Positions 1,977-22,034 of a stretch of DNA of 34,357 bases are shown here, in pieces. The DNA comes from Microcaldota archaeon (lineage in GTDB: Archaea > Micrarchaeota > Micrarchaeia > Norongarragalinales > JACRGE01), in contig JACRGE010000038.1 of the NCBI GenBank assembly GCA_016212465.1, positions 1-34,357 on the forward strand, read 5' to 3'. The notes beneath the pieces were generated by a model. It was not told where the DNA came from and did no database searches. It saw nothing but the letters and a program-made list of their open reading frames with translations. Numbering within the stretch: position 1 is the first letter of the stretch; every line of letters starts with the position of its first letter. The position numbers and the translations under genes are program-made.

Positions 1977-2204
1977 ATGAAATTCCTCGTCATCAAGAAA
2001 ACGAAGAACCAAAACCTTCTTCTGAAAAGCGAGGAAAATGAACCGATTATAAAGAAAATGCTTTTTTTAAATCGCAAGCAGATTGGGTATGTTTTTGAAA
2101 CAATCGGCTTAGTGGAAAAACCATTCTATCTAGCCAAGGCTCCGGATCAGTGGGAGACGGTAAAGGAAGGAACTGTTCTCGAAGGCGGGGGATGTGCTAA
2201 ATGA
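1977..2204 (+). CDS. gar1: Gar1-like H/ACA RNP protein
   Basis: 75 aa from ATG 1977; IGYVFETIGLVEKPFYLAKA resembles Gar1 (G.V.d.fGpV..PY); immediately upstream of tfb, a common archaeal gar1-tfb arrangement. Confidence 0.7.
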   Translation: MKFLVIKKTKNQNLLLKSEENEPIIKKMLFLNRKQIGYVFETIGLVEKPFYLAKAPDQWETVKEGTVLEGGGCAK

Positions 2205-3103
2205 TGAAATGCATGGAGTGTGGAAGCAAGATATTGAAGAGGAATGCGGAAAGAGGGGAGATTGTATGCAGCTACTGCGGCCTCGTACTCGAAGATACCG
2301 TAATCCAAAACGGACCAGAATGGAGGGCGTTTGACGCAGAGCAGAGGGCCATCCGCGCAAGAACAGGCGCTCCGTTAAAGTATATGAGCCCAAACAAAGG
2401 GCTGGTGACTGAGATAGACCAGTACAACAGGGACAGTAAGGGAGGTAAAATCGCTCCGGCTCAACAGGCACAGCTTTATAGGATCAGGAAGTGGCACAAA
2501 AGAGCAAGCGTCTCAAACTCAGTTGAAAGAAACCTTTCCATTGCTTTGACCGAACTCAACAGAGTTTCATCGCATCTGGGCTTGAATGAAAGCATCCGCG
2601 AGGGCTCCGCACTCCTTTACAGGAGATGCGTGGAAAAAGGGCTGATTAGGGGAAGACAGATAGAAAGCGTCGTGAGCGCAGTCATTTACGCGGTATGCAG
2701 GCAGTGTGGAATCCCAAGAACACTTGATGAGATCGCAGATGCTTCAGAAATTTCAAAAAAAGAAATTGGAAGAACTTACAGGCTTGTGATGCAGGAGCTT
2801 GGGCTTAGGATACCACTCACAAATCCGCGGTTGTGTATAGCCCGTTTCGTAAATGATTTACGCCTTTCTGGTGAAACCCAGAATAAGGCAGTGGAGATAC
2901 TCGACCACGCCATAGAGAAAAAACTGATTTCAGGAAGAGGGCCCATCGGCGTCGCAGCCGCATCCGTTTACATTGCTTCAGTAATGACTGGAGAAAGAAG
3001 AACGCAGAAAGAAGTAGCGGATATCGCTGGAGTAACGGAAGTAACTATACGCAACCGCTACAGGGAGCTCATAAAATTCCTTGGATTGAGGATAGCCATC
3101 TGA
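2201..3103 (+). CDS. tfb: Transcription initiation factor IIB (TFB)
   Basis: N-terminal Zn ribbon CxxC...CSYCG, RARTGAPL B-reader-like segment, two cyclin folds; full 300 aa. Confidence 0.96.
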   Translation: MMKCMECGSKILKRNAERGEIVCSYCGLVLEDTVIQNGPEWRAFDAEQRAIRARTGAPLKYMSPNKGLVTEIDQYNRDSKGGKIAPAQQAQLYRIRKWHKRASVSNSVERNLSIALTELNRVSSHLGLNESIREGSALLYRRCVEKGLIRGRQIESVVSAVIYAVCRQCGIPRTLDEIADASEISKKEIGRTYRLVMQELGLRIPLTNPRLCIARFVNDLRLSGETQNKAVEILDHAIEKKLISGRGPIGVAAASVYIASVMTGERRTQKEVADIAGVTEVTIRNRYRELIKFLGLRIAI

Positions 3104-18959: not shown

Positions 18960-19715
18960 TTAAGACCACTTGCAGCCGCCTGAAACGCACTTGCAGGAAA
19001 GTCCGTACTTGGTTTCGTCAAAACACTCTCTCCATTCGCAGGTGGTTACTACGGATTCTTCCGTTCTTGATTGGCATACCTGCCCAGAGCATCCTCCGGT
19101 CGTGCAATTTGCGTTAGAGGAACAACGGCCGTAGGTAGAACTGCCGCAGAACCCCAAGGTAGTCGTAGTGACTGAAAAAAACCTTATCCTGAACTCGTTC
19201 AGCTTTTCTATAATCTGCGTCAAGCTTTGCGGCATGTTCTGAGGAAAGTACATGGAAACATTCTTCTCCCTTCCGTTTATCCTAAAGGTGACGAGCCTGC
19301 TCGGCAGGTCCATAGGACAATTTTGCCGGCACCAGTACGAGTCGTTGAAGCTGAAAACATTTGCGTCGGCCACCATTTTCTTGAAGGCTTGTAGTTCGTT
19401 ATGCGGAAGCTCGCTTTCTCTCGTCGTGATGTTTGCGTCAAACCAGCGTCGTTCTTCAAGGAAAAGGGAGCCGTTGTTTCTCACCCAGAACTTCCCATAC
19501 GCGTCAACCATTCCACTGTACCATGAGTGCATCACTTCAATGTTTTCACGCATTTCAATGCTCGTTGACGTTTGAGCGGCAGTAGTGGTGGCGCCTTCCG
19601 AGGTAGTTGTTGTAGCGAATGCGGTTGTGGACGTGGTGGCGGTCTGGGTTTGATTTACGCACCCGAATAAAACCAAAGTGGAAAAAAGAAGAAAAACAAG
19701 GAGCTTGTCTCTCAT
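18960..19715 (-). CDS. Lipoprotein with C-terminal eight-cysteine-cluster-like domain
   Basis: Signal MRDKLLVFLLFSTLVLFGC lipobox then Thr-rich linker; C-terminal CGSSTYGRCSSNANCTTGGCSGQVCQSRTEESVVTTCEWRECFDETKYGLSCKCVSGGCKW. Confidence 0.75.
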   Translation of the reverse strand: MRDKLLVFLLFSTLVLFGCVNQTQTATTSTTAFATTTTSEGATTTAAQTSTSIEMRENIEVMHSWYSGMVDAYGKFWVRNNGSLFLEERRWFDANITTRESELPHNELQAFKKMVADANVFSFNDSYWCRQNCPMDLPSRLVTFRINGREKNVSMYFPQNMPQSLTQIIEKLNEFRIRFFSVTTTTLGFCGSSTYGRCSSNANCTTGGCSGQVCQSRTEESVVTTCEWRECFDETKYGLSCKCVSGGCKWS

Positions 19716-19719
19716 TTTC

Positions 19720-20046
19720 TCACTCTTCAATGAAGTCCTTGAGCAGTTCAACCGCCCTCTTGATGCTCGTCTCAATCTGTTTCTCACTCTTTGCTCCAGA
19801 GCAAATTACTTTCCCATTCTTGAACAAAAGAAGTGTTGTACCAATTTCCTTGAGGCGCATGATCGCACCAGGGAATTGTTCCGGTTCATATTCAACGTTG
19901 TCAACTTCCATCGCAATGTTGAACAAATCCAGTTCAACGTTGAGGTTGGCGCTTGCGACGATGTTCTCTACCTTGAAGCTCACGTCTATCTTCTTTTTCT
20001 TCCCAGGCTTCTCTTCCCCAGCAGTTTTTTTCTTTCCTTTCGCCAT
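19720..20046 (-). CDS. Single-repeat TATA-binding-protein homologue (half-TBP)
   Basis: KVENIVASANLNVELDLFNIAMEVDNVEYEPEQFPGAIMRLKEIGTTLLLFKNGKVICSGAKSEKQIETSIKRAVELLKDFIEE* matches one TBP repeat; 108 aa in all; no second repeat before the stop or downstream. Confidence 0.88.
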   Translation of the reverse strand: MAKGKKKTAGEEKPGKKKKIDVSFKVENIVASANLNVELDLFNIAMEVDNVEYEPEQFPGAIMRLKEIGTTLLLFKNGKVICSGAKSEKQIETSIKRAVELLKDFIEE

Positions 20047-20700: not shown

Positions 20701-20973
20701 ATGAAGAGATCACGGGGCGCTTATTCAAAGAAAGGACGTAGCCTAAAGAGCAAGGGACTGGTTCCCATAACGCACATGCTGGAGCGCTTTGAAATAGGCG
20801 AGCACGTACGCATAGACATTAATCCTCGCTTCGGTGGAAAACCCCCTCTCAAGTTCAACAGAAGGATTGGCGAGGTGTTGGGCGCACGTGGTGACTCTTT
20901 TGTGGTCAAGTTGGCTGACTTAGGCAAAGAAAAGATTTTTACAGTTCCAAGCATTCACTTGAAGAGGGCGTGA
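20701..20973 (+). CDS. rpl21e: 50S ribosomal protein L21e
   Basis: MKRSRGAYSKKGRSLKSKGLVPITHMLERFEIGEHVRIDINPRFGGKPPLKFNRRIGEVLGARGDSFVVKL. Confidence 0.93.
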   Translation: MKRSRGAYSKKGRSLKSKGLVPITHMLERFEIGEHVRIDINPRFGGKPPLKFNRRIGEVLGARGDSFVVKLADLGKEKIFTVPSIHLKRA

Positions 20974-21031
20974 ATGCTTAATTAGTTGTCCCTCATTAGC
21001 CTATGGTGAGAAATTCATTCACTTGAAATGC

Positions 21032-21382
21032 ATGGAAGGGAAGCGTATGGAGCTTGTGAAAAATGAGCCCATTACATTGGCTGAAGTAGTGGCGTTGTTG
21101 AAGAAAAGGCAGGCGGACGGGGAGTTGAGTTACGAGCAGCAGAACGCCTTGGATTACGCCGAGAAATTTTCGAAGGTTGATGTAAAAGCCGCGAAGGAAT
21201 TGATGAAGGAACTGGCCAAGATTAATGGCCTTGGTGAAAAATCGGCTGCGTGCGTCACGATAATCAACATCCTGCCTAAGAAGGAAGAGGAAGCGAAGGC
21301 CATACTCTCCAAGGACAAGGTGGAATTGCCTGAGGAGTCCCTAAAGGAGATCATTAAAATCATTAAGAAATACCGCAAATAA
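21032..21382 (+). CDS. rpoF: DNA-directed RNA polymerase subunit F (Rpb4)
   Basis: NEPITLAEVVALLKKRQADGELSYEQQNALDYAEKFSKVDVKAAKELMKEL..LGEKSAACVTIINILPK; lies between L21e and DUF655 as in many archaea. Confidence 0.9.
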   Translation: MEGKRMELVKNEPITLAEVVALLKKRQADGELSYEQQNALDYAEKFSKVDVKAAKELMKELAKINGLGEKSAACVTIINILPKKEEEAKAILSKDKVELPEESLKEIIKIIKKYRK

Positions 21383-21470: not shown

Positions 21471-22034
21471 ATGTTTAAGAGAGAGGAATACGGCTTAGTA
21501 CTAGATTTCCTTCCCTACGGCAGAGCCGATGAAGCAAAGAAAGAGCAGTTTGTGCAGGTGGTGGGCGAACAATTCTTTACTCTTCTAGAGGTAGTGATAA
21601 AACCAGGCATGACAGCTGACGTGGGGGAACGAATATACATCGGAAAGGGCACTCGTGACAAGGTGGACTACATCAAGTCAAGGATTACATACGCTCAGTT
21701 AACCAATACAGCAAAGCGGGAACTTCAAGGAATGGTCAGAAGAATTGTGGCAGCCAGGGAAGCAGAGTTCGTTAACTTTATCAATCACGCGGGCGCAATC
21801 AACATACGGTCGCATACGCTTGAACTCCTTCCTTCAATTGGGAAAAAGCATTTGCAGGATTTGTTGAGTGAGAGGGAAAAACAGCCGTTTACCTCTTTTG
21901 AGGACATTCAGAAGAGGGTCCCGCATCTGGGAAAGATCGAGGACTTGTTCATCAACCGAATCGTAGAAGAGCTGGAAGGAATTTCGAAGTACTACCTATT
22001 CGTTAAAATGCCTTCGCAGAGTGAAGCGTATTAG
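21471..22034 (+). CDS. DUF655-family protein
   Basis: EEYGLVLDFLPYGRADE...VGERIYIGKGTRDKVDYIKSRITY...RSHTLELLPSIGKKHLQDLLSEREK; canonical rpoF-DUF655-ksgA order. Confidence 0.9.
   Translation: MFKREEYGLVLDFLPYGRADEAKKEQFVQVVGEQFFTLLEVVIKPGMTADVGERIYIGKGTRDKVDYIKSRITYAQLTNTAKRELQGMVRRIVAAREAEFVNFINHAGAINIRSHTLELLPSIGKKHLQDLLSEREKQPFTSFEDIQKRVPHLGKIEDLFINRIVEELEGISKYYLFVKMPSQSEAY

Follow-up and report, generated by a model that had tools for sequence, protein, structure and literature searches.

The window, a 34,357-nt stretch of DNA from a Microcaldota archaeon, encodes a TATA-binding protein (TBP) with a single repeat. No other TBP was found in the genome, and this one is best read as the general TBP of its lineage. 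Few transcription factors are as conserved as TBP. Its two repeats are the textbook example of an ancient homodimer that a gene duplication froze into one chain, and this duplication is usually taken to have happened a single time, close to the origin of archaea. We consider it highly probable that the half-size protein (half-TBP) is general and binds an ordinary TATA box as a homodimer, and that repeated re-duplication of a single-repeat ancestor took place among its relatives. The gene and its immediate neighbour comprise the following features.

19720-20046, minus strand: half-TBP open reading frame, single repeat, 108 aa (Pfam PF00352 at 99.2 bits, AlphaFold2 model, Foldseek)
19732-19980, minus strand: the sole TBP repeat domain, residues 23-105 (PF00352 match)
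19987-20046, minus strand: Lys-rich basic N-terminal tail, residues 1-20 (open reading frame; low model confidence)
19963-19965, minus strand: codon of Asn28, in VENIVAS at the saddle centre (invariant in 25 half-TBPs)
19867-19890, minus strand: stirrup YEPEQFPG, residues 53-60, including Phe58 (invariant in 25 half-TBPs)
19822-19824, minus strand: codon of Phe75, in LLLF-KNGK (invariant in 25 half-TBPs)
18960-19715, minus strand: lipoprotein-like DUF6438 open reading frame (Pfam)

The open reading frame is a genuine single-repeat TBP. The Pfam TBP profile matched the protein in one stretch over its whole length (positions 1-85 of 85; E 1.2e-28; curated cut-off 22.9 bits). The two tandem repeats of a TBP were not present, as this single stretch was followed by a TGA stop. 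NCBIfam models of full-length TBP scored 60-88 bits against cut-offs of 181-347, with half of the model length covered, and the top sequence matches in the PDB were archaeal TBPs, each aligned twice, once per repeat. A second repeat hidden by a frameshift was rejected, because the downstream minus-strand reading frame, whose Met lies at about 19715 and whose start is 4 nt past the half-TBP stop, is the lipoprotein-like DUF6438 protein. This DUF6438 gene is possibly co-transcribed with the half-TBP gene.

An alignment of 25 diverse half-TBPs revealed no variation at Asn28, Phe58, Phe75 or the stirrup. Asn28 corresponds to the established DNA-contacting Asn of the saddle centre in normal TBP, and Phe58 and Phe75 to its two intercalating Phe residues. 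The N-terminal tail was variable among relatives. The same alignment was the input for an AlphaFold2 model, which had a pLDDT of 84 overall, >90 through the domain and <50 for residues 1-12. In Foldseek, about 80 residues of this model aligned with a single repeat of solved TBPs at about 1 Å; the top 44 matches were all TBP chains or TBP fusions, and nothing else was matched at E <0.001. A natural two-repeat relative, whose half-like repeats are each 60-61% identical to the window protein, was predicted to form a complete TBP saddle (TM 0.86 to the archaeal TBP 1mp9).

The genome of the window is metagenome-assembled (1.2 Mb, 104 contigs, 91% complete). No other TBP was found in it by protein search at E up to 10, by the family HMM or by a profile of 13 sequences; for this genome taken singly, a second gene may still lie in the missing 9%. 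In the window's order, all 27 genomes with a match had exactly one repeat above the family cut-off, and three incomplete genomes had no TBP match; the L049 and L050 proteins are identical to those of G007 and G009, which belong to this order. Among one-contig relatives, G160 (772 kb) has just one half-TBP, and four further genomes (G057, G226, G279 and G295) carry two unlinked half-TBP genes as their only TBPs, on a single contig each, so that these separate genes are not a product of fragmentation. A half-TBP from Thermoplasmata (L111) was left out of the counts as a truncated gene, since its reading frame runs off the contig end. An earlier note, made from the window's letters alone, had described a single-repeat TBP at 19720-20046 with a Lys-rich start and then a stop; this proved correct, on the minus strand and with the protein as quoted. 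The Pfam search that it proposed returned the full profile at 99.2 bits, and its statement that no second repeat had been lost to a frameshift agrees with the DUF6438 protein found 4 nt after the stop. Its proposed genome search yielded no canonical two-repeat TBP and left the half-TBP as the sole one, while a sequencing error hiding a repeat, which it had named as grounds for refutation, was ruled out by the distribution of single repeats across the order. Its suggestion of a specialised second TBP was not borne out, as neither the genome nor its order-mates yielded another TBP.

Three TBP states were recorded in a survey of 303 genomes of the class. One half-TBP gene was present in the window's order, in families f10, f12, f18, f20 and f27 and in much of f15, as well as in one genome of f17 (G069) and in f13, where up to three near-identical copies occurred. 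Two divergent, unlinked half-TBP genes were present in f11 and part of f15. One two-repeat TBP gene of about 190-260 aa was present in f9, f14, f16, most of f17, f19 and f21-f26. Among the sampled Diapherotrites, both half-TBPs (L052 and L083) and two-repeat forms were observed. The half-TBPs of a second type, B, in f11 and relatives (L152-L155 and L107), carry a signature of their own, IIILFKNGK and FPGAIFRI, which suggests a specialised partner for the A-class half-TBP. One f11 genome (G288) has two half-TBPs and also a canonical two-repeat TBP with FPGL and FSSGK (L022, C43:2733-3251), which may be explained by contamination, perhaps with host DNA, or by gene transfer. In f28, G142 carries a strongly diverged second TBP repeat of 42 bits (C12:19300-19539) beside an ordinary half-TBP. 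The neighbours of the half-TBP gene that mark its locus in the window are as follows.

20779-20973, plus strand: ribosomal protein L21e, a divergent neighbour (Pfam)
21023-21382, plus strand: RNA polymerase subunit Rpo4 (RpoF) (Pfam RNA_pol_Rpb4)
21471-22034, plus strand: DUF655 protein (Pfam and conserved neighbourhood)

Half-TBPs and two-repeat TBPs mostly adjoined this divergent L21e-Rpo4-DUF655(-KsgA) group in Micrarchaeota and, in part, in Diapherotrites; the neighbourhood was partly rearranged in f15 and f11. The half-TBP thus sits among housekeeping genes, and half and two-repeat TBPs are positional orthologues, indicating that the changes of state occurred at one locus.

The core promoter of half-TBP genomes was a normal one, with a BRE-like AAA and then an 8-bp box of the TTTATATA type about 30 nt before the starts, as in two-repeat relatives. 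A motif trained on G007, a half-TBP genome of the window's order, had 47 forward matches upstream of window-genome genes, compared to 13.9 ± 3.7 in shuffles, and at -50 to -30 there were 19 forward and 4 reverse matches. A de novo search of the window-genome upstream regions alone converged on a different motif. The direction bias against reverse matches was weaker in other genomes, which a near-palindromic box would lead one to expect. No extra palindromy of the TATA box was found in half-TBP genomes compared to two-repeat ones, and the most palindromic box belonged to the two-repeat genome G040; promoter symmetry therefore gives no support for a homodimer. A single TBP repeat covers about half of a normal TATA box. 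Given a normal 8-bp box, two subunits per box is the economical reading, and a half-TBP homodimer on TATA DNA, already suggested in the earlier note, would be the best mechanism. Two identical subunits would dimerise along the strand-1 edge, which is the repeat junction in normal TBP, and form a two-fold symmetric saddle on an ordinary 8-bp TATA box. As the two stirrups would be equal, direction must come from BRE and TFB: TFB, through the upstream BRE, would pick which of the identical stirrups to grip and thereby set the direction of transcription. The genome encodes the following two TFBs.

2201-3103 of the window, plus strand: TFB, the expected partner, with a Zn ribbon and two TFIIB repeats (Pfam)
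30211-30759 of contig C18 of the window genome (G000): second TFB (genome search)

Two other explanations bear on the function of the protein. An artefact or pseudogene, arising from a fragmented assembly or from truncation of a TBP with the real one elsewhere, might be suspected in a metagenome-assembled genome of 104 contigs and 91% completeness. The same architecture in all 27 matching genomes of the order and in one-contig genomes, 95 distinct single-repeat reading frames that stop soon after the domain (median 5 residues), and 33 fully invariant residues in a set of 13 sequences argue against it, and we regard it as scarcely credible. It is also unlikely, though less remotely so, that the half-TBP pairs with some unrelated protein or that TFB holds it as a monomer. 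Dimerisation is deduced here, and in many archaea the binding of TBP to DNA can be stabilised by TFB (PMC7289017); against this, the 8-bp TATA box is intact, the saddle-centre residues and both Phe residues are all kept, and in relatives two half-like repeats are fused into one predicted saddle.

The origin of the half-TBP was examined by comparison of the first and second repeats (R1 and R2). Protein identity between R1 and R2 was about 45-54% in canonical archaeal TBPs and up to 78% in two-repeat TBPs of Micrarchaeota. The Ala of FPGA and the Lys of FKNGK were fixed or nearly fixed in every repeat of the Micrarchaeota and Diapherotrites clade, and absent or rare in both canonical repeats; at a third clade position, Ile was fixed in halves and R2s. 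At the cleanest diagnostic site, canonical R1 mostly had Asp and canonical R2 had Asn (13/13), whereas the clade had Asp in 41 of 42 halves and in all 30 R2s. The earlier note had the window protein mixing features of both repeats. This is partly so, but the protein has the R1 state at both of the cleanest positions (Glu before Asn28, and Asp40), and EYEPEQFPG, which the note had assigned to the second repeat, occurs in both repeats of several archaea. In the repeat tree, all Micrarchaeota and Diapherotrites repeats formed one clade on the R1 side (SH-aLRT 95); within it, R1 and R2 of Diapherotrites each formed a clade, and half-TBPs were mostly placed outside the fused TBPs. Woesearchaeota, another DPANN lineage, had a TBP with canonical R1 and R2.

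Where R1 and R2 had the same residue, their codons agreed more often than expected from the codon usage of the gene in Micrarchaeota (32 genes, mean excess +0.14, p 4e-6) and, to a smaller extent, in Diapherotrites (11 genes, 0.08, p 0.003). No such excess was detected in other archaea (21 genes, +0.004, p 0.62). Because genes within a group are related, the p values err on the optimistic side. In G157, a member of f15, a family otherwise with half-TBPs, the end of contig C39 carries an in-frame tandem of two half-TBPs (L284) that are identical at 99 of 100 nt in the visible overlap, part of the first copy being missing at the contig end. AU tests on 86 columns rejected neither ordinary inheritance of R1 and R2 (p 0.128) nor a common origin of all fused R1 (p 0.094); they pointed towards a single-repeat ancestor and several re-fusions without reaching significance.

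The simplest account of these sequence comparisons would be a single-repeat ancestor, derived from R1 and later re-duplicated several times. In the ancestor shared by Micrarchaeota and the sampled Diapherotrites/Iainarchaeota, TBP would have been cut down to one repeat, most probably canonical R1. Some descendants, including the window's order, would have stayed single-repeat; f11 and part of f15 would have acquired two divergent half-TBP genes, probably acting as heterodimers; and in others tandem duplication would have restored a two-repeat TBP, apparently on more than one occasion. Both the direction of change and the number of re-duplications are what we infer from the tree, the diagnostic sites and the codons. 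The main rival is that a two-repeat TBP was kept throughout, with R1 and R2 homogenised by gene conversion and half-TBPs arising from several independent repeat losses, a combination that would mimic re-duplication. Gene conversion also yields excess codon identity, canonical inheritance was not rejected by the AU test, and R1 and R2 of Diapherotrites each form a clade. It accounts less well for fixed changes that R1 and R2 have in common throughout the clade, among them the R1 state in all R2s, for half-TBPs lying mostly outside the fused forms, and for G157, where a change from half to double is seen. On balance we judge this rival somewhat unlikely, although it deserves serious consideration. 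A further reading, which we hold to be improbable, makes the half-TBP a relic: Micrarchaeota and Diapherotrites would have split off before the TBP duplication, and two-repeat TBPs would have arisen independently here and in other archaea and eukaryotes. The clade's repeats group apart from canonical R1 and R2, its fused forms look independently duplicated, and its R1-like states could be primitive, since an unrooted tree of three groups does not allow the duplication to be placed. This reading requires the clade to lie outside all other archaea, including Woesearchaeota with their canonical repeats, and it is at odds with the R1-type states at the two cleanest positions and with the position on the R1 side. 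The earlier note's view that the protein resembles the pre-duplication ancestor thus holds for its architecture, while the R1-type states, the tree position and the two-repeat relatives at the same locus favour secondary reversion.

Compared to archaeal and eukaryotic two-repeat TBPs, for example those of Methanocaldococcus jannaschii (2z8u), Sulfolobus acidocaldarius (1mp9) and Pyrococcus woesei (1ais), the half-TBP has the same fold and DNA-contact residues, and both kinds occur with a TATA box and BRE, as the sole TBP gene and with TFB present. The half-TBP differs in having one repeat, so that it would have to dimerise to cover the box, and in FPGA and FKNGK in place of FPGL and F(S/G/R)SGK. 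Haloarchaea, like f11 and part of f15, have more than one TBP gene per genome (PMC7289017, PMC2121645). The haloarchaeal TBPs are each complete as far as known, whereas the f11 and f15 genes are each a half, and their pairs may therefore be heterodimers. RNase HIII, as cited in a passage of PMC7289017, also has one TBP-type domain per chain, but there the domain belongs to an enzyme and not to a general transcription factor; RNase HIII 3asm was a weak Foldseek match to the half-TBP model (E 0.34). One survey of DPANN does no more than score TBP as present (PMC8407392). In the open-licence literature we found no description of half-size TBPs from DPANN, and an earlier mention elsewhere is possible.

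A living lineage whose sole TBP has a single repeat makes the hypothesis of the frozen homodimer directly testable, including whether TFB and BRE suffice for a symmetric TBP dimer to drive transcription in one direction. In some relatives two halves seem to have been re-joined, repeating the duplication step of TBP, and Micrarchaeota thus serve as natural replicates of the transition to a two-repeat protein, with single, two separate, fused and, apparently in G157, fresh tandem forms. These findings also suggest that asymmetry between the repeats of TBP, which in eukaryotes serves TFIIA and other partners, is dispensable in archaea.
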